A stretch of 10,026 nt of DNA from Desulfovibrio sp. (GTDB lineage: Bacteria > Desulfobacterota > Desulfovibrionia > Desulfovibrionales > Desulfovibrionaceae). The notes beneath the pieces were generated by a model. That model was not told the DNA's origin and searched no databases. It saw only the letters and a list, made by a program, of their open reading frames with translations. Every line of letters begins with the position of its first letter. Positions within the stretch are counted from its first letter, which is position 1. Location: positions 1 through 10,026 of the forward strand of contig JAIWOE010000138.1 of NCBI GenBank assembly GCA_020217165.1. Reading direction: 5' to 3'. Position numbers and translations under genes: made by a program. Positions 1-9,604 of the stretch are shown here, piece after piece.

Positions 1-611
1 AGCTTGAAGAAGTCCGTCAGGGAGTAGAAGCCCAGGAAGCCCAACAGGATGACATACACGCCGGAGATGAACACTTCCGAGAGCAGGGGGTCATAATCGT
101 ACAGGGTGCGGTTTATTTCCCCGCCCACAAGCACGCCCAGGATGGAGCCTACCAGGAACGCCACGGCCAACGGCACATTCACGTTGCCCAGCTTCTTGTG
201 CACCACGGTGCCCATGATGGCCTTGGCGAAGATGTGGAACAGGTCCGTGCCCACGGCCAGGATGCCCTTGATGCCTGCGCTCATGAGGGCCGGCGTGATG
301 ATGAAGCCACCGCCGGCGCCGATGCAGCCGGTGATGAGGCCGGCGCACAAACCGATGGCAATGGTGACCAGGAAAATCTTCAGTTCATAAAAGGCCGGGC
401 TGTACGCCGTTTTTTCCCCGAGCATTCTGGGCAGGGTGTCATCCCCGGCAAAGCACATGCCATAGATGACCATGGGGATGATGGTGAGCACGGCAACAAG
501 CAGCATCCGCTTTTTGCTGCGCAGAATATTCATGCTGGTTTCGTACTCCCAGCGGGCGTGGCGCATGGTGCCCGCCATGAGCATATCGTACAATTGCCGC
601 ATTGCGTTCAT
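1..611 (-). CDS. TauE/SafE-family membrane permease, 3' end cut by window edge
   Basis: The visible part is 203 residues from ATG at 611; the C-terminus lies beyond base 1. The family (DUF81) moves small anions, chiefly sulfur compounds such as sulfite or sulfoacetate, across the inner membrane; the substrate here cannot be read from sequence. A basic cytoplasmic stretch (residues 1-35) precedes a first membrane segment at about 36-54. A second at about 78-96 leads into the glycine-rich turn at 98-102 (GAGGG) followed by a proline, typical of TauE repeats. Further hydrophobic segments lie near 146-164 and 181-198. A Shine-Dalgarno-like AAGGGAG lies about 10 bases upstream of the ATG. It is last in the sigma-54 operon seen here, 54 bases after the double-receiver gene, so it is probably the effector whose activity or level the soluble proteins tune. 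Family assignment is firm; substrate is unknown. Confidence 0.88.
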   Translation of the reverse strand, partial: MNAMRQLYDMLMAGTMRHARWEYETSMNILRSKKRMLLVAVLTIIPMVIYGMCFAGDDTLPRMLGEKTAYSPAFYELKIFLVTIAIGLCAGLITGCIGAGGGFIITPALMSAGIKGILAVGTDLFHIFAKAIMGTVVHKKLGNVNVPLAVAFLVGSILGVLVGGEINRTLYDYDPLLSEVFISGVYVILLGFLGFYSLTDFFK

Positions 612-628
612 GTGTTTTTCGCTCCCTT

Positions 629-644
629 TGTGAATTGTTTCACA
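629..644. promoter_or_regulatory. CRP/FNR-type palindrome or RNA hairpin before the permease gene
   Basis: The 16-base inverted repeat consists of TGTGAA, four bases, TTCACA. Read as an operator it matches TGTGA-N6-TCACA, the half-sites of the CRP/FNR superfamily; with one more base on the left it reads TTGTGA. It lies between the double-receiver stop (666) and the permease ATG (611), directly upstream of the Shine-Dalgarno. In the transcript the same bases could fold into a 6-bp hairpin with an ACAA loop beside the ribosome site. Both readings are possible; no clear -10/-35 accompanies it. Confidence 0.45.
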
Positions 645-665
645 TGGCCTGTCAAAAACGTTATT

Positions 666-1688
666 TCACATTGTCGCTGTATGATCTCCCAGAGCATGCG
701 GACTCTCCGCCGCGGACTCCTGGGAGGGGGTAGCCTTTTTGCCGTGATGGGAGGCGTCCTCCAGCCGCTCCACCAGATGGTCCACGTCCACGGGGTGCAA
801 GAGGCAGTCAAACGCGCCCAGGGACGTGCATTCCGAAAGGGCACCCGCCTCCTGGGCGTCTGCCAGCAAAATCACTTCCACAGGGATGGCGCGGTGCATG
901 ATCTGGCGCAGGGTTTCCAGACATTGGTCCGGATTGCCTGCGGCGTTGAGCACCACCACGTCCACTCCTGCAGTGCTTGCGGTGCCTGGTGCGCCCGGGG
1001 CCGGCTCGGTCAGGGCCTGCAGGATGCGGTCGCAGGAGACCACGCCCTGCACCGCCACCCTGCGCGGGGTCAGCCGGCGGGCAAGCTGTTCCAAAAACGG
1101 GGGATCCTCCCCGGCCACCAGGGCCCGCACCGTGGCGGCAGGGCCTTCGGCCGGGGCGGCGGGGAGCATGGTGGGGGCCATCACGGCGTCCACGGTGTCA
1201 AAGTCGCCGCTTTCGGCATACGCCACGGCCACCATGGCATCTTCGATGCGCGCCCGGGCTGCGCGGCGAATGGCCAGCACCAGCTCGTCCAGATCCAGGG
1301 AGGGCTGCTCGGCGGGCGGCGCGTCGTCGCCCAGGATGGGCCCGGACGTGGGGCCGGCCTTGGCCAGGGTGTAAAATGCGCCGAGCTTGATGGCCTCCCG
1401 CTTGACTTCCGGGGCCTCGGCGGGAAACAGGGCGATGATGCGGACTTCCGGATAGGTGGTGCGCAGCTTGTGCAACATGGCCAGGCCGTCCGCCCCCAGT
1501 TCGTTTTGCAATTCCAGGTCCAGGATGAGCACGTCCGGCAGGCGCTCCTGCTGCACGTCCAGGCTTTCCTGCGCGGCGTCGCTCAGGAGCACCAGGTCCT
1601 TGAGGAGCCGGTCGGCCTTGAGCCGCGCAATGAGCGTGGCGGCAAGGTCGCTGTCCCCAAGGAGCATGAGCAGGGAGAGGGTGGGCAT
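666..1688 (-). CDS. Double receiver-domain protein, second receiver degenerate
   Basis: This 340-residue protein contains two CheY-like receiver domains and no DNA-binding or enzymatic output domain. The first receiver (about 4-112) has acidic D12/D14, a phosphoacceptor D57 at the end of strand 3 and K110 in strand 5, but alanine (A86) where Ser/Thr is usual. The second (about 186-312) keeps the fold pattern and acidic E194/D195, but has N248 at the phosphoacceptor position and H298 where lysine belongs, so normal phosphorylation is unlikely. The linker (about 130-172) contains a helix with the motif ED-x3-AVAYAE-x-GD (149-162), also present in the 83-residue protein of the same operon. The tail 313-340 looks disordered. 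The start at 1688 has AAAGGAA as ribosome site. It lies 54 bases from its neighbours on each side. A phosphorelay or adaptor role with the permease is inferred. Confidence 0.82.
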   Translation of the reverse strand: MPTLSLLMLLGDSDLAATLIARLKADRLLKDLVLLSDAAQESLDVQQERLPDVLILDLELQNELGADGLAMLHKLRTTYPEVRIIALFPAEAPEVKREAIKLGAFYTLAKAGPTSGPILGDDAPPAEQPSLDLDELVLAIRRAARARIEDAMVAVAYAESGDFDTVDAVMAPTMLPAAPAEGPAATVRALVAGEDPPFLEQLARRLTPRRVAVQGVVSCDRILQALTEPAPGAPGTASTAGVDVVVLNAAGNPDQCLETLRQIMHRAIPVEVILLADAQEAGALSECTSLGAFDCLLHPVDVDHLVERLEDASHHGKKATPSQESAAESPHALGDHTATM

Positions 1689-1719
1689 GGCGGTTCCTTT
1701 GGTGCCGGACAGTGTGCGA

Positions 1720-1755
1720 TGCGTCGCGACTTGCGTCGCCTGTTACGTCGCCTCG
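1720..1755. repeat. Three 12-base units with hairpin potential between the receiver genes
   Basis: Units starting at 1720, 1732 and 1744 begin TGCGTCGC, TGCGTCGC and TACGTCGC, exactly 12 bases apart; the third reaches into the end of the 124-residue receiver gene. On the transcript, 1739-1726 forms GCGAC-GCAA-GTCGC, a 5-bp stem with a GNRA-type loop, and the next bases can form a second short stem. This may set mRNA stability or the relative translation of the two receiver genes. It lacks a T-run, so it is not an intrinsic terminator. Confidence 0.4.
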
Positions 1756-2117
1756 TTGGTGGCGCAGGCCGCATGGAGCTTGCGCAACAGTTCCTGCAGG
1801 TCAAAGGGCACCTGGATGTCATCGAAGGCGCCGTGTTTACGGGCTGCCAGGGACAACTTGAAGTGCGCCTCCGGCGCCATGGCGATGATGGGTGTGTTGG
1901 GGGATACGGCGTGAATGCGGTCCATCATGGCCAGTCCTTCCTCGCCCAGGTCTCCCAGGCCCAACAATGCCACGTCCACATGATCCTCAAAGGAGGTTTC
2001 CACGTCCCAGTCGGCGGCGTGGACAATGTATCCCTCTTTGCGCAGCCGAAGTTGCAGGTATTCCCGAAGTCCGGGATTCGCCTCCACCAACAGCACCCGT
2101 TTGGCCAACACGCCCAT
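1743..2117 (-). CDS. Stand-alone pseudo-receiver (CheY-like) protein
   Basis: This 124-residue protein is a single receiver-type fold with the expected alternation of strands and helices. The active site is stripped. The position of the phosphoacceptor aspartate is G53 (it lies exactly eight residues before the conserved G61), the Ser/Thr position is A79, and the lysine of the usual K-P-F is V103 before P104-F105. Only E12 remains of the acidic pair. It therefore cannot accept phosphate in the normal manner and probably acts as a binding module. ATG at 2117 is chosen because it fits the domain start and comes 10 bases after the stop of the 83-residue gene; the open frame upstream is a shadow of that gene. 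The ribosome site is weak (GGGGCT), suggesting coupling to the preceding gene. The fold is sure; the partner is unknown. Confidence 0.85.
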   Translation of the reverse strand: MGVLAKRVLLVEANPGLREYLQLRLRKEGYIVHAADWDVETSFEDHVDVALLGLGDLGEEGLAMMDRIHAVSPNTPIIAMAPEAHFKLSLAARKHGAFDDIQVPFDLQELLRKLHAACATNEAT

Positions 2118-2127
2118 GGCAGCCCCG

Positions 2128-2379
2128 TCACACGGCCACGTGCCCGTACCAGGCGTGGGAAGGCTTGAGGTGCATATCCTGCAGAAGTGCCCCCAGGGTG
2201 CGCCGGGCGCGGGAGTCGCGCTGCACGGCGCCCAGGATGTCGCGTTCCGCCACGGCATGTTCGCCGCGTTCCGCAAAAGCCACCGCGGCGTAGGTGTCTT
2301 CCAGCCCGCCGTGCAGGGTCTGCCCGGGAGCCTTGGCGCCGCCCAGCAGGGACTTGAGGGATTGCAACAGATTGAACAT
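2128..2379 (-). CDS. Small soluble protein (83 aa), first gene of the sigma-54 operon
   Basis: I do not recognise a named family. The 83-residue product begins with an amphipathic helix (residues 2-12, LLQSLKSLL), then a glycine-rich turn, then a helix with the motif ED-x3-AVAFAE-x-GE at 27-40. The same motif occurs in the linker of the double-receiver protein two genes downstream. The rest is helical and charged, with no signal peptide or membrane segment. ATG at 2379 is well supported by AAGGAGG nine bases upstream, and it lies about 53 bases after the predicted sigma-54 transcription start. A longer open frame reaching to 2760 crosses the promoter and the NifX-like gene and is rejected. 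As leader gene of the operon it is likely made in large amount. A role as a small adaptor for the receiver proteins or the permease is inference. Confidence 0.8.
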   Translation of the reverse strand: MFNLLQSLKSLLGGAKAPGQTLHGGLEDTYAAVAFAERGEHAVAERDILGAVQRDSRARRTLGALLQDMHLKPSHAWYGHVAV

Positions 2380-2442
2380 GGCGACCTCCTTGCGACTTCT
2401 TTCACATGCGGTGCATTCGTGCGCCGCACATGACAAGGAGTT

Positions 2443-2458
2443 AACAAGAGGCGTGCCA
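2443..2458 (-). promoter_or_regulatory. Sigma-54 (-24/-12) promoter
   Basis: On the minus strand the sequence reads TGGCACG, four bases (CCTC), TTGTT. This matches the RpoN consensus TGGCACG-N4-TTGC except for the last C, with exact spacing between the GG and TG elements. Transcription would start near 2432, giving a leader of about 53 bases to the ATG at 2379 with its strong ribosome site. A sigma-54 activator gene lies just upstream on the same strand, which fits local control. Confidence 0.8.
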
Positions 2459-2512
2459 AGATGCTCGGGACGTGGAATCTCGGGAGGTTGGGGAATTCCC
2501 GTCAAACTGGTG

Positions 2513-2574
2513 TGTTTCAGGCAGAGACGGAATGAAACAAATTGATAAAAAAAGTACAAAACAGAATGAAACAA
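2513..2574. promoter_or_regulatory. Putative upstream activator sites: TGAAACA repeats around an A-tract
   Basis: An inverted repeat TGTTTCA (2513-2519) and TGAAACA (2533-2539) is separated by 13 bases. The longer word GAATGAAACAA occurs at 2530-2540 and again at 2564-2574, 34 bases apart. A run of seven A (2547-2553), which would bend DNA, lies between them. The set is about 80-140 bases upstream of the predicted sigma-54 start, where bacterial enhancer-binding proteins usually bind. The area is AT-rich against a GC-rich background. Binding by the neighbouring activator is inferred. Confidence 0.55.
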
Positions 2575-2987: not shown

Positions 2988-4433
2988 CTAGGTATCCAGC
3001 CCGTATTGCTTCATTTTGCGCCACAGGGTGGATCGGCCCCAGCCCAGCAGGTCCGCCGCCTTGCCGCGCCGGCCCCTGGCCTGGGCCAGGGCCTGGAGAA
3101 TCATGCGTTTTTCGGTATCGGACCAGGCGTCGCCGTCGTGCACTGCGGCATTGTCCCTCGCCGCGGCCTGGCTCGCGGATGCGGCAGGCGCCTCCAGTCG
3201 TCGGAAGGCCACGGGCACAATGTCCGACTGTTCCAGCAGGTAGGAGGGCAGGTGGGCCATTTCTATGCGGCTGCCGTTGCAGACATTGACGGCATATTCC
3301 ACAATGTTGCGCAGTTCTCTCACATTGCCGGGATAGGCATAGTGCAGCAGAATGTCCCGTGCTTCGTCGCTGAAGGCCTGCACATGTTTCTTGAATTCCT
3401 CGTTGATGCGGCGAAGGAAATGGTCCAGCAGCAGATCCACATCCTCTTCGCGATCACGCAGGGCCGGGATGTGCAGACGCACCACATTGAGGCGGAAAAA
3501 CAGGTCCTGCCGGAAGGTGCCGGCCCGGACCATCTCTTCCAGATTGCGATGGGTGGCCGCGATGAGGCGCACATTCACCGGCACGGGCATGCTTCCGCCC
3601 AGGGGGGAAATGACGCGATCATCCAGAAACGTCAGCAATTTCACCTGTAGGGTCAGGGGCAGGTCGCCAATTTCCGTGAGAAACAGCGTGCCGTTGTGGG
3701 CCAGCTGGAATCGCCCGGGCTTGTTTTCCGTGGCTCCGGTAAAGGCGCCCTTGCGGTGGCCGAAGAGTTCGGATTCCAGCAGCGATTCTGGCAGCGCCCC
3801 GCAATTCACCTTGACGAAGGGCCCCTTGGCCCGCGGGGAGGCCTGGTGGATGGCCTCGGCCAGCAAGTCCTTGCCCGTGCCGGTTTCGCCGGTCACCAGC
3901 ACCGAGGAATCCGAGGACGCGATGGAGGGCACCAGCTGAAACAGCCGTTCCATTTGCGGCGAGCGGCCCACGATGCGGCCGAAGGTGAAGCCGGTTTGCT
4001 GCCGGTTGGCCATCTCCGAGAGGGGACGCAGGTCCTCGATGCATTCGATGTACCCGGCCAGACGACCGCGGGCGGTGACGGCCGGGGACTGGGTGGCTCG
4101 CACGGGAATGCGTTGGCGCAGTTTGTTGATGATGTCTGCCTCGTGGACCACGGCGCGGTCCTCGGCATCCATGGTATCTAGGGGGCAGCCGCGCACGCAC
4201 AGGCTGGAACGCAGCACGTGGCGGCAGGGCAGGCCCTGGGCGTCTTCCTGGGTAAAGCCGGTCAGGGCCTGGGCCGGGCGGTTGAGCAGCAGCACCCGTT
4301 TGTCCTTGGAGAGGAGCACCACCGGCAGGGGGATGTTGTTGAGCAGGGGCAGCAATTCCACCGGGGAGTCAAAAAGATGCTCCACCAGGGGCAGGGGGAC
4401 GGCGGCGGACGATGCGGGAGGGGAGTCGGCCAT
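2988..4433 (-). CDS. Sigma-54-dependent activator, PAS-AAA+-Fis
   Basis: This 481-residue enhancer-binding protein remodels RNA polymerase-sigma-54 using ATP. A PAS sensor spans about 25-140 and carries C70, C79 and C83, a spacing (C-x8-C-x3-C) suited to a metal or iron-sulfur centre. The AAA+ domain (about 152-385) has Walker A GETGTGKD (182-189), an intact GAFTGA loop (229-234) for sigma-54 contact, and the FRQDLFFRLNV region at 307-317. The Walker B segment reads GTLFLTEIGD, so the usual aspartate is T253 while E254 remains. A Fis-type helix-turn-helix ends the protein (about 440-480). I chose ATG at 4433 because it precedes the PAS domain; the frame stays open to TTG at 4634, but the extra residues are proline/arginine-rich and look non-coding. 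No good ribosome site precedes 4433, so the start is less certain than the gene. Its likely target is the sigma-54 promoter at 2443-2458. Confidence 0.93.
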   Translation of the reverse strand: MADSPPASSAAVPLPLVEHLFDSPVELLPLLNNIPLPVVLLSKDKRVLLLNRPAQALTGFTQEDAQGLPCRHVLRSSLCVRGCPLDTMDAEDRAVVHEADIINKLRQRIPVRATQSPAVTARGRLAGYIECIEDLRPLSEMANRQQTGFTFGRIVGRSPQMERLFQLVPSIASSDSSVLVTGETGTGKDLLAEAIHQASPRAKGPFVKVNCGALPESLLESELFGHRKGAFTGATENKPGRFQLAHNGTLFLTEIGDLPLTLQVKLLTFLDDRVISPLGGSMPVPVNVRLIAATHRNLEEMVRAGTFRQDLFFRLNVVRLHIPALRDREEDVDLLLDHFLRRINEEFKKHVQAFSDEARDILLHYAYPGNVRELRNIVEYAVNVCNGSRIEMAHLPSYLLEQSDIVPVAFRRLEAPAASASQAAARDNAAVHDGDAWSDTEKRMILQALAQARGRRGKAADLLGWGRSTLWRKMKQYGLDT

Positions 4434-4605
4434 GCGGATGCTGGGTCGGGCGCCGGCGGAGGCAGGGCGCGCCTGGTTGGAGCCATGCCGCCGGCGGATG
4501 CCGCAGCAGGGCGCATCGTCCCACCTTCTGCCGAAGGTGTCCAGTCCCAAAGGCGGCACCGGCCGCGGCCCGCCGGAGCAGAAACCTCGGGCCGTGGGGT
4601 TGGCA

Positions 4606-4634
4606 TGTATATATAAGCTGTTTGGATGCTGCAA
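4606..4634 (-). promoter_or_regulatory. Possible sigma-70 promoter for the activator gene
   Basis: On the minus strand TTGCAG (4634-4629), 17 bases and TATACA (4611-4606) form a plausible -35/-10 pair inside a short AT-rich patch (4606-4616, alternating TA). It lies directly after the hairpin at 4641-4662. The predicted leader to the ATG at 4433 would be about 165 bases, GC-rich, with no gene I can support in it (4434-4640). Confidence 0.4.
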
Positions 4635-4850: not shown

Positions 4851-5591
4851 TCAGGCGCAAGTTCCATTGTGCACAAGCCCGGCAGCAGGACGTGACGCCG
4901 GGGCAAGGGCCCGCCGCGCCTGTGCCACGAAGGCCGTGAGCCGCGCCCAGTCCTTGCGGCCGGCGGCATCCTCCAGGCCGGTGTGGGCATCCACCCCTGC
5001 AGGGTGCACGGCGGCCACGGCTGCGGCCACGTTGTCTGGCGTCAATCCTCCGGCCAGCACCACCGGCCGGGGGGATCGCTGCACCAGGCTGCGGCTGACG
5101 GCCCAGTCGTGCACGCGGCCGGTGGCGCCCATGGCCCCGCTGGCGGCGTCATAGGTGTCCGTCAAAAAGGCATCCGCCCAGGGGGCGTGGCGCTGCATCT
5201 CCTCACCCAGGAGGCAGGGGTCCCCGAGGCCCACGATCAGGGACTTCATCAGCAACACGTCGGGGAGCATGGCGCGCAGGCGCAGGCCGGCCTCAGGGTC
5301 CAGGGGGCCGTGCAGTTGCAAGACCTGGGCGCCCACGGCGAGGCACAGGGCGGCGGCGCTGGCGGCGTCGTCCTCATAGGTGATGACGGCAAAGACCAGC
5401 CGTGGATTGCGACTTCGGGCCCTGGCCACCAGGGTGGCGGCGTCGGATTCGGAAAGGTCCGGGGTGTGGTGGTTCAGGCGCAGGGGGAGGCCCACCACAT
5501 CCACCCCGGCGGCAAAGCAGCGCAGGGCTTCATCCAGGTCGAACACGCCGGCGGCCTGCACAAAGGCCTGGGGCAGGCTAGGTGGAATCAT
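4851..5591 (-). CDS. TrpF-like (phosphoribosylanthranilate isomerase fold) protein lacking the catalytic Cys
   Basis: This 246-residue TIM-barrel protein follows the TrpF pattern: QLHG (92-95), MKSL (115-118) for the strand usually written IKA, LTD with D145, GATG...DW (155-163), LAGGLTPDNV (179-188) and VDAHTGLED (200-208) for the phosphate-binding end. In TrpF, the N-terminal KICG supplies the general-base cysteine. Here the matching stretch is QAAG (12-15), with A14 instead of cysteine, and the loop after strand 2 (GLPLRLNHHTPDLSE) is unlike the RSPR loop of isomerases. D145, the general acid, is kept. It may therefore be a paralogue with another substrate rather than a tryptophan enzyme; no other trp gene is present. 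The ATG at 5591 lies inside the end of the modF-like gene (14-base overlap), suggesting translational coupling. Fold is sure, activity uncertain. Confidence 0.82.
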   Translation of the reverse strand: MIPPSLPQAFVQAAGVFDLDEALRCFAAGVDVVGLPLRLNHHTPDLSESDAATLVARARSRNPRLVFAVITYEDDAASAAALCLAVGAQVLQLHGPLDPEAGLRLRAMLPDVLLMKSLIVGLGDPCLLGEEMQRHAPWADAFLTDTYDAASGAMGATGRVHDWAVSRSLVQRSPRPVVLAGGLTPDNVAAAVAAVHPAGVDAHTGLEDAAGRKDWARLTAFVAQARRALAPASRPAAGLVHNGTCA

Positions 5592-7152
5592 GGTCCAGCA
5601 GCTCCCGCAGCAGGGCAGGGGGGCAGTCGGCCCGGGGGCCGGCGTACTGCACGCGGCCTTGGCGCAGAACGAGCACATTGCCGAAGAAGGATGGACAGTC
5701 TTCAGGATGATGGGTGACCATCACCAGGCACGGCCCGGCGGCTGCGGCCAGGGCCAGGGTGTCCAGGAAGTGTTGCCGGGCGGCGGGGTCCAGGCCGGCA
5801 CAGGGTTCATCCAACAGCAAGAGGGGCGGACAGGCCACCAGGGCCCGCGCCAGAAACACCCGTCGGGCCTGCCCCGTGGACAGGGTGGACAGGCGACGCT
5901 CGGCCAGGCCCCCCAGGCCCAGGTACTCCAGCCAGTGCAGGGCGATGCGACGCTGGGCGGGGGTGGGGGCATCCCAGAGGCCGATGGAGCCGAAAAAGCC
6001 GGCCACCACCACGTCTGCGGCGGTGTCATCATATGTATAGGTGGCTTGCAGGGCCGGGGAGACCAGGGGGGCGGCGCGGCGGCGCTCCAGGGTCATGGGG
6101 GCGTCGGCCATGCGGATGCTGCCGCCCAGGGCCGGAGGCAGCTCCCCCTGAATGAGGCGCATGAGGGTGGATTTACCGGCGCCGTTGGGGCCGAGCACGG
6201 CCCAGTGATCCGTGGAAGGCTGGCCATCCCCGGGCAGACGGGGGTGATGAATGGTCCAGGAGACGTCGTGCAGCACGTGGGCGCGGTCCACGTAGACGTC
6301 GGCATGGGCGATGTCCAGCAGGGGCTCGTCTCCTGGGGTGCGGGGGGCCATGGCCCGGTGCAGCAGGGTGCAGGCCGCGGGCGCCAGGGGTTCCGCCGCC
6401 GCCGGGGCAGCCTCCCCCCCAAGATCCACGGCACTCATGGTGGATTGTTCCACCAGGCGGCCGCCTTCCAGCCGCAGGGCGTGGGTCAGGCCGCGGGGCA
6501 GCTCCTCCAGGCGGTGGGCGGCCATGACGAGACTCAAGCCGTCGTCCCGGGCCATGAGCTGTTCCAGGACGGCGGTGATGCGACGGCGGGAGGGCACGTC
6601 CAGCCCTTCCAGGCCCTCATCCAGCAGGAGCAGGGCCGGACGCCGGGTGAGGGGCGCCAGGGCCCGCACCAACAGCAACAGCCGCAGCTCCCCCTGGGAA
6701 AAGGTAGACAAGGGCCGCTCCGCCAGCCCGGCGGCGTTGCACAGGGCCAGCACCTCGTCCAGCCGGGCGGACTCCGCCGGGGTGAGGGACCGGTTGCACA
6801 GAAAGGCGTCGTCAAAACCGGAGGCGGCCACCTCCCGCCCCCGGATGCGCCAGCCCTGGCGCTGGTAGCGCTCCTGCAAGGCCGGCGAGACCAGGCCCAT
6901 GCGCGTGCGCAGGCCGATGGGCGAGGGGTCCGGAACGCCCTCGAACCCGTAGCAGCGTGCCTGGCGGTCCAGGGGCCAGAGTTCGCCCCGCAACAGCTGC
7001 AGCAGGGTGGACTTGCCGGCGCCGTTTTCGCCCAGCAGCAGCCAGTGCTGGCCGGAATGCAGCTCCCAGCAGAGGTCCTGCAGCACCAGCACACCGCCAC
7101 GCAGCACCGAGGCGTGGTCCAGGCGAAGGAGGGGAAGAGGGGATGCTGGCAT
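5578..7152 (-). CDS. modF: ModF-like ABC protein with two ATPase domains
   Basis: This 524-residue cytoplasmic protein has two ABC ATPase domains and no membrane segment. Domain 1 has Walker A GENGAGKST (41-49), a signature FSQGE (151-155, Q in place of the middle G), Walker B LLLLDE (174-179) and H213. Domain 2 has GPNGAGKST (321-329), signature LSTGQ (424-428), LLLLDEP (444-450) and H481-H482. The stretch around 385-393 (GFFGSIGLW) resembles the ModF segment GYFDSIGIY. ModF is associated with molybdate metabolism, though its exact role in E. coli is unsettled; no modA/B/C genes are visible here. ATG at 7152 is preceded by GGAAG at suitable distance; the longer frame to 7257 adds cysteine/arginine-rich sequence overlapping the gap and is rejected. 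It follows the thioesterase by 101 bases and overlaps the TrpF-like gene. Confidence 0.85.
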   Translation of the reverse strand: MPASPLPLLRLDHASVLRGGVLVLQDLCWELHSGQHWLLLGENGAGKSTLLQLLRGELWPLDRQARCYGFEGVPDPSPIGLRTRMGLVSPALQERYQRQGWRIRGREVAASGFDDAFLCNRSLTPAESARLDEVLALCNAAGLAERPLSTFSQGELRLLLLVRALAPLTRRPALLLLDEGLEGLDVPSRRRITAVLEQLMARDDGLSLVMAAHRLEELPRGLTHALRLEGGRLVEQSTMSAVDLGGEAAPAAAEPLAPAACTLLHRAMAPRTPGDEPLLDIAHADVYVDRAHVLHDVSWTIHHPRLPGDGQPSTDHWAVLGPNGAGKSTLMRLIQGELPPALGGSIRMADAPMTLERRRAAPLVSPALQATYTYDDTAADVVVAGFFGSIGLWDAPTPAQRRIALHWLEYLGLGGLAERRLSTLSTGQARRVFLARALVACPPLLLLDEPCAGLDPAARQHFLDTLALAAAAGPCLVMVTHHPEDCPSFFGNVLVLRQGRVQYAGPRADCPPALLRELLDHDST

Positions 7153-7253
7153 GCGATGCTTCCGGGCAACTCTCACGGCAATGCGCACAGCGGGCGCACG
7201 ACAGGCACAGCCCGCGCCGAACACGGGAGGTCCTGGCACAGGCTGCAGGTGCA

Positions 7254-7748
7254 TCACCCCTGCTGGCGTTTGTGTTTCTTTTCCTCGGCGTAGCGGGCGC
7301 GGCGGGCGGCGGCGACCTCAAAGCGCTGGCGCTCCTCCTCGGTCTCCAGAAGCAGCGGGGGCACGGGGATGGGGTGGCCGTCGCGGTCCAGGGCCACGTA
7401 GGTCAGCATGGCCTGGGCGCAATGCTGGGTGCGGCCGGTGATGAGGTCTTCCCCGATGACGGACACGGAGACGTCCATGGAGGTGCGGCCGGCGTATTCC
7501 AGCCGGGCGGTGAAGATGGCCAGATCCCCCACGCGCACGGGCCTGAGGAAGTCCACGCGATCAATGGACGCCGTCACCACGTTGGTGCGGGCATGGCGCA
7601 TGGCCGCCACGCCGCCGGTGGTGTCGATGTGTTTGAGGATGACGCCGCCGTGGACGCTGCCGTAGGGGTTGGCGTCCTCGGGGAGCATTTGGTGGCTCAT
7701 GACCACAATGGAATCGGCAATGCGTTTGCCGGGATGGTGCTGGCTCAT
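7254..7748 (-). CDS. Hotdog-fold acyl-CoA thioesterase
   Basis: This 164-residue protein matches the YciA/ACOT type of acyl-CoA hydrolases, which cut acyl-CoA to free acid and CoA in the cytoplasm. The hallmark is ANPYGSVHGGVILKHID (26-42): N27, the HGG turn (33-35) at the start of the central helix, and D42. It continues with the strand DFLRPVRVGD (66-75). The C-terminal 30 residues are a charged helix (E136-rich, then K/R-rich). The ATG at 7748 overlaps the stop of the acyltransferase gene as ATGA, so translation is probably coupled; GTG at 7757 is a less likely start. Its partnership with an acyltransferase suggests a role in fatty acyl supply or editing for membrane lipids, which is inference. 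Confidence 0.88.
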   Translation of the reverse strand: MSQHHPGKRIADSIVVMSHQMLPEDANPYGSVHGGVILKHIDTTGGVAAMRHARTNVVTASIDRVDFLRPVRVGDLAIFTARLEYAGRTSMDVSVSVIGEDLITGRTQHCAQAMLTYVALDRDGHPIPVPPLLLETEEERQRFEVAAARRARYAEEKKHKRQQG

Positions 7749-9604
7749 GGGGTGCACACTGGCTGGCGTTGCTTGGCGGCGTGATAGTCGTGGAGGTTGT
7801 AGACGTTGTCTATGCCCATGTACATGCTCAGGGTTTTGACGGGCGTCTGGAGCAGGTCCACATAAATCAGGCCGTCGAGACAGTTGTTGAAGTCCGGGTC
7901 CACGTTGAAGGAAAGGATCTTGCCGCCCAGCTTGAGGTACTGCTTGAGCAGCACGGGAATTCCCTTGGCCTCGGGCTCGATGTCCGAAACCACCTCGGCC
8001 ACATCTTCCATGTTGGAAAGCACGGCGCGAAACTCGCGCACCTCGTGCAGCTTCATGCAGCGCAGCCGAGGCGGGCGCCTGGGTTTGACCAGCTTGGAGA
8101 GATCGGAAAGGGAGTTGTTCTCCCGCAAAAACCGTACGATCATCTCACGGGACATCATGGTGTATTCATTGGAGATGGATACCGGCCCAAAGAGCACCTT
8201 GTAGTCCGGGTGCAGGAGCACGTAATTGGAGATGCCCTTCCAGAGCAGGGGCAGGGCCACGATGCTTTTCTGGTATTCCGGCCGCACAAAGGAGCGGCCC
8301 ATTTCCAGGGCCGGGCCCATGCGCTCGAAGAGCTGCGGCTTAAAGGAAAACAGGGAGGAGGTGTACAGGCCCTCGATGCCGTGTTCTTCAATGATTTTGG
8401 CGGATTTTCCCACGCGATACGCCCCCACTACCTCGCTGGTTTCCGGATTCCAGATGAAGAGGTGGGCGTAATATTGGTCGTAGCGGTCCAGGTCGATGGA
8501 CTTGCCTGTCCCCTCGCCTACCATGCGGAAGGTCACCTCCCGCAGGCGGCCGATTTCCTGAAGGATGGCAGGGATTTCCTGGGCAGAGGCCACGTAGGCC
8601 TTGAACTTGCCGCTTTCCGCCAGCAGGTTTTCCGGAGGCAGGCGGGCCACTTCCGCAGCCAGCACGGCGGGATCCTGGCTTTGCTCGATGGGGGCCGTGG
8701 ATTTTGCCGCGCTGGAAGGGGCCGGCAGGACCTTTTTCTTGAGCAGGGAAAGCAGCCGGAATCGCGGCCTGCCGCCGGGGGAATCCGGTCGCTTGTCCAG
8801 CATGTAGGTGCGCAGGCGCAGGTAAGCCAGGAGTTCCTGCTCGTTTTCGTAGCGCTTGAGTTTTTTGGATGGAATGAGACTGCCCACCTGCACCTGGAAG
8901 CTCTGGTGCTGGCGGCGCACCAGCTCCCGCGGCAGCAGCAGGGTGCGCAGTCGGGGGTGGATGAGCCCCGCGGCGTTGAACAGCGGCCCGTTGTTGCCAG
9001 GGAAAAAGATGGGCAGCACCGACGCGCCGGTCTTCTGGATGATGCGCGCCACGGTGGGATTCCAGGGCGGGTCCATCACCCGCCGGCGGTGCAGGTCAAA
9101 GCTGGAGACCTCGCCCGCCGGGAAGATGGCCAGCATGTGCCCGTCGCGCAGGGTGCGGATGCACTGCTTGAGGGGCTGGATGTTCTTTTTGAGGGACTCG
9201 TTGCGGCCAAAGTTGTCCACAAAAATGACCTTGTCCGCCAGGTCCGGAATGTAGCTCAGCAGGTACGTGCCCATGACCTGCACATCCTCGCGGATGCTCA
9301 TGAGCAGGGCGCCGAGGATGATGCCCTCGATGCCGCCGTAGGGGTGGTTGGCCACCACCACCACCGGCCCCGTGGCAGGGATGCGGGCGCGGGCTTCATC
9401 CGTGATGTTGATGGTCAGGCCCATGGCCGTGAGCACCCGGGCCCAGAAATTCGGGCCGGGAGTCTCGGTGGCGCGGGCATAAATGTCGTTGACGTCGGAA
9501 AGCCGCGTCACGCGCTCCAGAAGCGGGCCGACAAGATTCAGCGTGGCATGCGCGAAGGGCTTGTCCGGGCTGGCTTCGAGGGTAAAAGGACCTCGTTTCC
9601 TCAT
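7745..9604 (-). CDS. Fused PlsC-like / OlsB-like (GNAT) acyltransferase
   Basis: This 619-residue protein joins two acyltransferases. The N-terminal half (about 20-290) is PlsC-like: VVVANHPYGGIEG (82-94) holds catalytic H87, with E93 where relatives mostly have Asp, and FPAGEVSS (161-168) is the substrate-binding block in the form seen in the hemolysin/OlsF branch. The linker at about 285-335 is basic then Pro/Ala-rich. The C-terminal half (about 336-500) is an OlsB-type GNAT: FRMVGEGTG, DRYDQYYAHLFI, EVVGAYRVG and LEMGRSFVRPEYQ (433-445). Such fusions (OlsF) are known to make ornithine lipids, with GNAT doing N-acylation and PlsC doing O-acylation. An additional C-terminal segment (500-619) is not explained by either domain. 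The start at 9604 has AAGGAG 13 bases upstream, a rather long spacing. Ornithine-lipid synthesis is plausible but not proven. Confidence 0.87.
   Translation of the reverse strand: MRKRGPFTLEASPDKPFAHATLNLVGPLLERVTRLSDVNDIYARATETPGPNFWARVLTAMGLTINITDEARARIPATGPVVVVANHPYGGIEGIILGALLMSIREDVQVMGTYLLSYIPDLADKVIFVDNFGRNESLKKNIQPLKQCIRTLRDGHMLAIFPAGEVSSFDLHRRRVMDPPWNPTVARIIQKTGASVLPIFFPGNNGPLFNAAGLIHPRLRTLLLPRELVRRQHQSFQVQVGSLIPSKKLKRYENEQELLAYLRLRTYMLDKRPDSPGGRPRFRLLSLLKKKVLPAPSSAAKSTAPIEQSQDPAVLAAEVARLPPENLLAESGKFKAYVASAQEIPAILQEIGRLREVTFRMVGEGTGKSIDLDRYDQYYAHLFIWNPETSEVVGAYRVGKSAKIIEEHGIEGLYTSSLFSFKPQLFERMGPALEMGRSFVRPEYQKSIVALPLLWKGISNYVLLHPDYKVLFGPVSISNEYTMMSREMIVRFLRENNSLSDLSKLVKPRRPPRLRCMKLHEVREFRAVLSNMEDVAEVVSDIEPEAKGIPVLLKQYLKLGGKILSFNVDPDFNNCLDGLIYVDLLQTPVKTLSMYMGIDNVYNLHDYHAAKQRQPVCTP

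Follow-up and report, generated by a model that had tools for sequence, protein, structure and literature searches.

Genes and regulatory features of the locus

The window examined here, 10,026 nucleotides from Desulfovibrio sp., is one whole contig (C279) of genome GCA_020217165.1 (here G000). Four genes on its minus strand run head to tail in the order small protein, stand-alone receiver, double receiver and TauE/SafE (TSUP) permease, with gaps of 10, 54 and 54 bases. The first (2128-2379) encodes 83 aa and the second (1743-2117) a degenerate receiver of 124 aa (Pfam Response_reg, 2.9e-9). The third (666-1688) encodes 340 aa, made up of a receiver, a module that is described below and another receiver, with two Response_reg stretches (1.8e-15). 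The fourth (3-611) is the N-terminal part of the permease, which has been truncated by the contig end; its 203 residues match Pfam TauE (PF01925) at 4.6e-18, with 66.2 bits against a cut-off of 32.6. All of the frames are open, and the third-codon GC of the four genes is 0.77-0.84.

The same strand also includes a gene for a NifX/NifB-like (Nitro_FeMo-Co) small protein (2588-2944), whose match to PF02579 (1e-5, 26.2 bits) is slightly below the cut-off of 26.3, and a gene for an enhancer-binding protein (2988-4433) with PAS, AAA+ (GAFTGA) and Fis-type HTH domains (Pfam PAS_4, 6e-7; Sigma54_activat, 1.2e-69; HTH_8, 6.5e-16). The open frame of the latter extends from 2988 to 4634, and its start is likely the ATG at 4433, judging from the orthologue in G001, a genome of the same genus. 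The enhancer-binding protein shares 47% identity over 370 residues with an activator-like protein of a TSUP operon, and the NifX-like protein is 49% identical over 105 residues to a NifX-like protein from a TSUP operon and 89% identical in G001. When the window proteins apart from the small protein were scanned with NCBIfam, only generic names were returned, all below their cut-offs.

A sigma-54 -24/-12 promoter, TGGCACGCCTCTTGTT (TGGCACG-N4-TTGTT), is located at 2443-2458 on the minus strand and has one mismatch to the sigma-54 consensus pattern. With up to two mismatches allowed, the pattern matches the window 11 times against 7.4 expected and 31 of 200 shuffles reach 11, so the pattern by itself is not significant. 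The site is instead supported by a 23-nt promoter core, CATCTTGGCACGCCTCTTGTTAA, that is identical in G001 (the one other genome of the genus compared), by the adjacent PAS/Sigma54_activat/HTH_8 gene and by the repeated TTGTTTCA. The ribosome site 5' of the small gene is also identical in the two genomes. Two copies of the direct repeat TTGTTTCA (2533-2540 and 2567-2574, minus strand, together spanning 2533-2574) lie upstream of the promoter and are a candidate upstream activating sequence; the window contains three copies against 0.10 expected. In G001, the copy at 2533-2540 is identical and that at 2567-2574 is off by one base. The locus has the -24/-12 element and the enhancer-binding protein of a sigma-54 operon, transcription of which is predicted, and the enhancer-binding protein is the probable activator of this promoter.

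The third copy of TTGTTTCA is within a palindrome, TGTGAATTGTTTCACA, at 629-644 (plus strand) in the gap before the permease gene. It is an exact TGTGA-N6-TCACA, a pattern that has two window matches against 0.13 expected when one mismatch is allowed. The palindrome may be a CRP/FNR-like site or an enhancer half-site; both are candidates.

Much of this had been described in the original prediction. Its four same-strand genes and the gaps between them agree exactly with the coordinates found here, as do its two receiver-fold proteins with three receiver domains and its TauE/SafE permease, and its sigma-54 promoter is borne out by the one-mismatch site, the core shared with G001 and the adjacent activator gene. 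It had overlooked that the activator and NifX-like genes are part of the picture, that the permease is incomplete and that the operon probably goes on in another contig.

Receiver domains and the double receiver

Residues at the phosphorylation site were compared in an alignment of 146 receivers, 144 of which were scored, the other two being truncated receivers without a residue at the acceptor column. The stand-alone receiver has Gly in place of the acceptor Asp, Val in place of the conserved Lys and EA as its acidic pair. In the double receiver, the domain designated 2b has N at the acceptor position, GE as acidic pair and H for Lys; domain 2a retains the acceptor Asp and the Lys, the latter followed by an insertion of 19 residues, and has LG as acidic pair. 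The acceptor Asp is absent from two of the three window domains but present in 139/139 scored locus receivers, drawn from 141 that were gathered by profile (E 1e-6) up to 2.2 kb upstream, a procedure that favours intact receivers, with some contigs (e.g. L113 and L034) in both locus collections. No window receiver has the full Asp, acidic pair and Lys set of a phosphorylatable single-domain response regulator, though the residues kept by 2a would make some phosphotransfer possible. No kinase domain was found among the 11 window proteins scanned with Pfam.

Residues 6-312 of the double receiver are 30% identical to the products of a receiver-module gene and then a receiver-kinase gene in genome G200, the match running across one stop codon. 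The receiver part of the receiver-kinase gene is matched and the kinase part is absent. As a single frame, the double receiver was found in only one of 288 family genomes, the one studied here, and 13 of the 288 have any match at E 1e-12; the survey scored up to seven candidates per genome and may have passed over a more divergent version. A TPR_4 assignment in this protein was dropped, as the match is below its cut-off and outside the module.

The small protein and its module

The small protein includes an N-terminal helix that appears amphipathic by eye, a helical-hairpin module and a C-terminal tail related to FLExVGLxxVxVxYG, and has no match to any Pfam family up to E 10. A weak AlphaFold model (mean pLDDT 66, pTM 0.36) places helices at residues 2-13, 22-37, 41-57 and 62-68, with pLDDT of 70-84 at residues 21-50 and 57 at residues 51-60. 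The module, which likewise has no Pfam match, is predicted with moderate confidence to be a helical hairpin of approximately 28 residues. Besides recurring near TSUP permeases, it forms the tail of receivers and is present in Usp-like proteins and within the double receiver (RIEDAMVAVAYAESGDFDTVDAVM; 1185-1259, minus strand). One module profile includes window sequences; the copy in the double receiver was tested independently with profile A3, which was built without that protein and matched 1041-1256 with E 4.9e-5.

The module protein search scored 8000 candidates and listed 120 of 645 matches. We hand-picked 40 loci among the matches listed, spread across genera and omitting loci already seen, and compared them with 20 random contig stretches from the same genomes. 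A TSUP permease is present in the same 11.5 kb as the module in 27/40 chosen loci and 0/20 random stretches (Fisher 1.5e-7), where three of the 40 have no module at E 0.02 with the profile used, some of the 13 without TSUP are short contigs, and one control gave a module match. Receivers are present in 39/40 chosen loci and 4/20 random stretches (Fisher 5e-10). A SulP permease was found in none of the 40 and in one of the 20 controls, and thus the statistical association of the module holds for TSUP only. We suggest, tentatively, that the hairpin is an unnamed adaptor domain in sulfate-reducer signalling through which receivers and Usp proteins attach to TSUP anion permeases, and that the receivers of this operon have become phosphorylation-independent subunits of a complex controlling the permease; on balance we think this unlikely.

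Probable continuation of the operon and comparison with relatives

Another contig of G000, C131 (locus L093), opens inside a TauE C-terminus corresponding to residues 270-419 of the query. This is followed by genes for a membrane protein (here C2), a PPDK-like protein, PhnD, a histidine kinase, an intact receiver of 119 aa and a second PPDK-like protein; PhnD, the kinase and the receiver were identified by Pfam. The permease and the operon probably continue from C279 onto C131, which share no overlap, with approximately 70 TauE residues missing between them.

The C131 genes bear on two claims of the original prediction. The permease was held to be the only plausible effector, but C2 and the PPDK-like proteins also belong to the cassette. 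The system was also held not to be a classical two-component pathway, which fits the window genes, but fails for this genome if C131 continues the operon, as a kinase and an intact receiver are found there. Nor does it describe the relatives, where the acceptor Asp is invariant among the scored receivers and a kinase lies up to 3 kb upstream of TauE at 28/59 named loci and 15/33 relative loci. Here and below, the named TauE loci are the best 80 of 529 relatives rather than a random sample, and counts leave out loci with too little sequence on the side needed. The C131 kinase might phosphorylate the receivers, 2a with its retained Asp and Lys included, which would in turn gate either the permease or the PPDK-like proteins, and the order kinase-receiver-TauE is seen in many relatives. 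However, 2a lacks the acidic pair and is interrupted after its Lys by the insertion, and the other two receiver domains have neither Asp nor Lys, making an ordinary two-component system of this kind improbable.

C2 directly follows TauE in 73/75 scorable named loci (best 80 of 529) and in 33/35 relative loci. A stand-alone receiver on the same strand is within 1 kb upstream of TauE in 41/73 named loci (best 80 of 529) and 29/34 relative loci. Together with the module counts, these figures uphold the expectation that the genes occur together, but not in this exact form: the original prediction had named gene order confined to one genome as evidence against it, and the set with the double receiver is found in only 1/288. 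The remaining 32/73 named loci (best 80 of 529) have no receiver within 1 kb, and the palindrome before TauE may mark separate control. Both would suit an arrangement in which the small proteins share the promoter with the permease while serving the activator or another pathway. We consider this very improbable, as receivers, the module, NifX-like and Usp-like proteins accompany TSUP permeases across different locus types. From the gene neighbourhoods, the grouping looks real rather than accidental.

In G001, the small protein is matched over residues 1-69 only, and a PPDK-like frame follows. The matching stretch contains no receivers, no TauE of this class and no C2, no double receiver was matched in G001 at E 1e-12, and the only TauE there is a distant one (34% identity). 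This suits decay. The three small-protein and receiver genes in front of the TauE cassette could be decaying remnants of a TSUP signalling block that had been duplicated, with little function: acceptor sites have been lost, the kinase genes of the source block are missing from the window, and G000 retains, on contigs C10 and C11, portions of a second block that is intact. Against this, all frames are open with the third-codon GC given above, the promoter core and ribosome site preceding the small gene do not differ between the two genomes, and the loss in G001 removed the permease as well. We regard a relic as rather unlikely. A docking site at TauE's conserved N-terminal helix was considered and dropped, as the alignment also reaches this helix, from residue 5, in L132 and L133, two loci in which no receiver was found.

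Relationship to known systems

PMC4001038 describes a nitrate cluster in D. vulgaris (DVU0251-DVU0245) and D. alaskensis (Dde_0597-0605) that includes genes for TauE, a hypothetical protein, a PhnD/PtxB-like protein, a kinase, a 360-bp stand-alone receiver and a PPDK-like protein, with DVU0248 listed as a pseudogene. Nitrate resistance resulted from insertions in the D. vulgaris TauE gene, with a fitness of 11.44, and in its stand-alone receiver, with 9.14; pooled DVU0250 and DVU0245 mutants did poorly in nitrate (-5.82 and -6.04), and isolated DVU0246, 0247, 0250 and 0251 mutants grew similarly with and without 100 mM nitrate; the authors proposed leaky thiosulfate uptake (PMC4001038). A term search of the accessible portion of PMC4215793 returned no mention of these genes. 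All gene types of the cluster are present in G000, spread over C279 and C131, and C131 has PhnD, kinase, receiver and PPDK-like genes in the same order, a likeness by gene type rather than DVU sequence. In contrast to the nitrate cluster, a sigma-54 block with the small protein and degenerate receivers is in front, and C2 and an extra PPDK-like gene intervene. DVU0251 is 963 bp (320 aa) and the TauE here is longer, at approximately 420 aa, which makes the two no more than possible orthologues.

Loci L191-L197, L228 and L288 represent what we call TSUP operon type B, judging by gene order presumably the DVU2957-DVU2967 type (PMC4641369). Type B shares with the window a PAS/AAA+ activator-like protein, a NifX-like protein, stand-alone receivers, a receiver-module protein and a TSUP permease (Pfam TauE in L191 and L193), and the module small protein is found in 3/7 of L191-L197. 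The homologous activator-like and NifX-like proteins are those with 47% and 49% identity above. However, type B has kinases and its aligned receivers retain their sites, its permease is from another TSUP subfamily (331-341 aa) and its activator-like gene is inside the operon. As there are no histidine kinases in the window block, we call it a derivative of type B and not a member.

Type A, which from its gene order we take to be the DVU3303-3305/DVU3302-3298 type (PMC3333781, PMC10102598, PMC4641369), with reported sigma-54 control of DVU3302-3298, resembles the window in having a module small protein, and also has a Usp-domain protein with the module, both before a TSUP permease. It differs in its adjoining Lon-receiver, kinase and receiver-activator genes, and has no stand-alone receiver pair before the permease. 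One type A locus, L096, also has a SulP permease.

Interpretation

TSUP permeases are numerous in sulfate-reducer genomes and hardly characterised (PMC5840216), and mutants in TSUP or PSE-type loci grow differently when nitrate, chlorate or molybdate is present (PMC4001038 and PMC10102598). The locus bears on the transport of sulfate, sulfite or thiosulfate by sulfate reducers. From the comparison, C2 emerges as a constant neighbour of TauE, together with a receiver/PPDK-like setting that recurs and a short Pfam-less module beside TSUP in different locus types. We give about an even chance to the reading that these genes form the 5' portion of an operon under sigma-54 control, in which an inorganic-anion permease complex, formed by TauE and C2, lies behind a signalling block that has been rearranged and has partly degenerated. 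The likely cargo, if the D. vulgaris nitrate cluster is a guide, is a sulfur oxyanion.

In such an operon, the activator would switch on transcription, and the NifX-like protein may tune this activator. The small protein and the receivers would bind one another and, we guess, control how active TauE-C2 or the PPDK-like proteins are, or how they assemble, acting through contact and without being phosphorylated; any phosphate signal would come from the PhnD/kinase/receiver unit on C131. This gives concrete protein pairs for contact testing, and natural receivers without a phosphate site offer a means to separate contact from phosphorylation. The proposal that an output-less receiver acts on a membrane protein resembles the EpsW-EpsZ pair of Myxococcus, where a single-domain regulator, once phosphorylated, is reported to interact directly with a membrane enzyme and so to act on it (PMC12802240). 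However, EpsW works in its phosphorylated form, whereas two of the three receiver domains in the window have replaced the acceptor Asp.

The operon and its probable continuation

The window, which is the entire contig C279 of a draft genome, carries on its minus strand genes for a PAS/AAA+/Fis-type enhancer-binding protein (2988-4433) and a NifX-like protein (2588-2944). Downstream of these lies a sigma-54 site (2443-2458), followed by genes for a small protein (2128-2379), a receiver (1743-2117) and a double receiver (666-1688), and by the 5' part of a TauE/SafE permease gene (203 codons, 3-611). The last four genes had been predicted to form a sigma-54 operon with intergenic gaps of 10, 54 and 54 bases, and both the gene set and the gaps were confirmed. 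Taken alone, the sigma-54 pattern was not significant in the window (11 matches and 7.4 expected, at up to two mismatches). The promoter core CATCTTGGCACGCCTCTTGTTAA, the ribosome site and one copy of TTGTTTCA are each identical between the window and G001, another genome of the same genus. A palindrome, TGTGAATTGTTTCACA (629-644), separates the double receiver from TauE; it may be a CRP/FNR-like site or an enhancer half-site. Elsewhere in the window, a tandem ABC ATPase without a membrane part (5578-7257), presumably ModF-like, is flanked by genes for PRAI-domain and thioesterase proteins (Pfam), and 7745-9604 encodes a 619-aa fusion of acyltransferase and GNAT (Pfam). Sigma-54 operons with TSUP (the permease family that includes TauE/SafE) or PSE transporters are already known in D. 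vulgaris, in nine operons (PMC4641369).

Contig C131 of the same genome starts within the C-terminus of TauE (query residues 270-419). After the end of TauE it encodes the membrane protein C2, a relative of which has no Pfam family, then a PPDK-like protein, a PhnD-type binding protein, a histidine kinase, a receiver whose key residues are intact, and another PPDK-like protein. The PPDK-like protein next to C2 is 94% identical to one in G001, where its frame directly follows a small gene that is matched over residues 1-69 only. No receiver, TauE or C2 was found in that stretch of G001, the one stretch covered for C2; in G001 the double receiver had no match at E 1e-12, and TauE was matched only distantly (34%). 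From the gene content of C131 and the PPDK-like frame behind the small gene in G001, we conclude that the operon most likely runs on through the C131 genes, in the order small protein, receiver, double receiver, TauE, C2, PPDK, PhnD, kinase, receiver, PPDK. We infer that C279 and C131 are adjacent in the genome, with approximately 70 TauE residues unsequenced between them.

Conservation of the TauE linkage

A TauE match of at least 55% identity was present in 35 of 59 related genomes, including the window's own. When a collection of named genomes was queried with 12 such TauE proteins, at least 529 relatives were confirmed. The best 80 of these were kept and, by record title, are mostly from Desulfobacterota, with some from Nitrospirae, Desulforamulus/Desulfotomaculum and others. 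Among scorable loci in the named (best 80) and relative sets, which share some contigs, C2 lies directly 3' of TauE in 73/75 and 33/35, respectively, a same-strand receiver within 1 kb upstream in 41/73 and 29/34, a kinase within 3 kb upstream in 28/59 and 15/33, and a PPDK-like gene within 2 kb downstream in 45/68 and 14/25. The extent of the TauE-C2 linkage is new. As for the predicted gene set, its link between TauE and a receiver recurs, but the exact set is not conserved, the double receiver having been found as a single frame in 1 of 288 family genomes. L057 and L058 are loci in two genomes of a genus to which a contig titled Desulfonatronum also belongs; there, receivers and a NifX-like gene are divergent to receiver-TauE-C2-PPDK.

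A recurrent module

The small protein had no match in Pfam. Weak search matches pointed to small proteins (58-91 aa) whose neighbours are Usp-like proteins and permeases of the SulP or TSUP kind, and by its sequence the small protein belongs to a family with a common stretch of approximately 28 residues (EDxxAAxAFAEAGExxxA), here called the module. In the window protein the module is predicted to be a helical hairpin (helices 22-37 and 41-57; pLDDT 70-84 over residues 21-50, mean 66). Pfam returned SulP, TauE, Lon-receiver and Usp at the small-protein loci. Of two Usp-like proteins there that carry the module, one fell below the Usp cut-off, and Usp was absent from three others.

A module profile search returned at least 645 proteins (E ≤0.01), and none of the 120 matches listed contains a Pfam domain; within the class, matches at E 0.001 occur in 83 of 248 genomes. 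When 40 chosen module loci were compared with 20 random loci (fetched stretches of up to 11.5 kb), TSUP permeases were found at 27 and 0, respectively (Fisher 1.5e-7), receivers at 39 and 4 (5e-10), Usp or Usp-like proteins at 22 and 0 (9e-6), NifX-like proteins at 10 and 0 (0.02), and SulP at 0 and 1. Of the 40 module loci, 26 have the module as a stand-alone protein, 10 as the tail of a receiver and 19 within a Usp-like protein. This recurrent module is new; none of the literature consulted describes it, though a nameless module is not searchable by name, so a prior description is possible.

Some proteins hold up to five module copies. Five-copy proteins are found at L037 (616-1332), where the period of approximately 32 residues resembles a solenoid repeat, and at L253 (5316). 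At Nitrospirae TauE loci, module proteins flank TauE-C2 on either side. Two of these, L163 and L168 (approximately 9300-13200), encode a small module-like protein, a module plus Usp-like protein, TauE, C2, tandem Usp (Pfam in L168) and a small module protein.

Degenerate receivers and possible control by contact

We compared the sequences of 146 receivers: 141 found at TauE loci, the 2 of C131 and its counterpart in G001, and the 3 window domains. The acceptor column is occupied in 144 of them. The acceptor is Asp in 139/139 scored TauE-locus receivers and both C131-type receivers, whereas it is Gly in the stand-alone window receiver and Asn in the second domain of the double receiver, a contrast that may be overstated because receiver sampling was biased toward intact ones. 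Both of these window domains have lost the conserved Lys; the first domain of the double receiver retains Asp and Lys, and its acidic pair is gone. The window receivers are degenerate, and such fused degenerate receivers are new.

Decay of the window signalling block is the main rival explanation, and we consider it unlikely. We favour control through contact, in which a complex built from module and receiver folds would act on TauE-C2 or PPDK-like proteins, and give this an even chance. The observation behind the original prediction is confirmed, and its interpretation is supported in part. A study of D. vulgaris and D. alaskensis reports nitrate resistance from insertions in a TauE gene, its stand-alone receiver, and PhnD-like and PPDK-like genes; its authors explained this by proposing that a thiosulfate transporter is leaky (PMC4001038). 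The finding supports the view that, in a related cluster, the receiver and the permease function together. The same study contains misfits: pooled DVU0250 and DVU0245 mutants fared badly, and in isolation the DVU0250 mutant was resistant and the DVU0245 mutant was not (PMC4001038). The D. vulgaris nitrate-cluster TauE is also shorter than the full TauE of this operon. In Myxococcus, a phosphorylated single-domain regulator is reported to act on a membrane enzyme through direct interaction (PMC12802240).

Locus types and possible origin of the window block

Two types of module locus recur. In type A, Lon-receiver, kinase and receiver-activator genes adjoin those for a module small protein, a Usp-like protein and a TSUP permease. 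Type B includes a TSUP permease, a TM protein, activator-like and NifX-like proteins, a kinase, a receiver, an approximately 208-aa protein with no Pfam family, a receiver-module protein and a receiver-kinase; a module small protein is occasional (3/7 among L191-L197). On gene order and published papers, type A fits the D. vulgaris DVU3303-3305/DVU3302-3298 set and type B the DVU2957-2967 set.

The window activator and NifX-like proteins share 47% and 49% identity, respectively, with the type B activator-like and NifX-like proteins, and the small protein has a C-terminal tail common to type B small proteins. The double receiver aligns to the type B receiver-module gene and then to the receiver-encoding portion of the receiver-kinase gene. 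Both genus genomes contain portions of a normal type B block (TSUP, activator-like, NifX-like, kinase, receiver and receiver-module), the window's genome on contigs C10 and C11 (L288, L289) and G001 at L228. Given these likenesses and the type B parts elsewhere in the genome, the window block appears to be a duplicate of a type B block, in which the kinases would have been lost, two genes fused and the acceptor sites lost, with a different TauE downstream.
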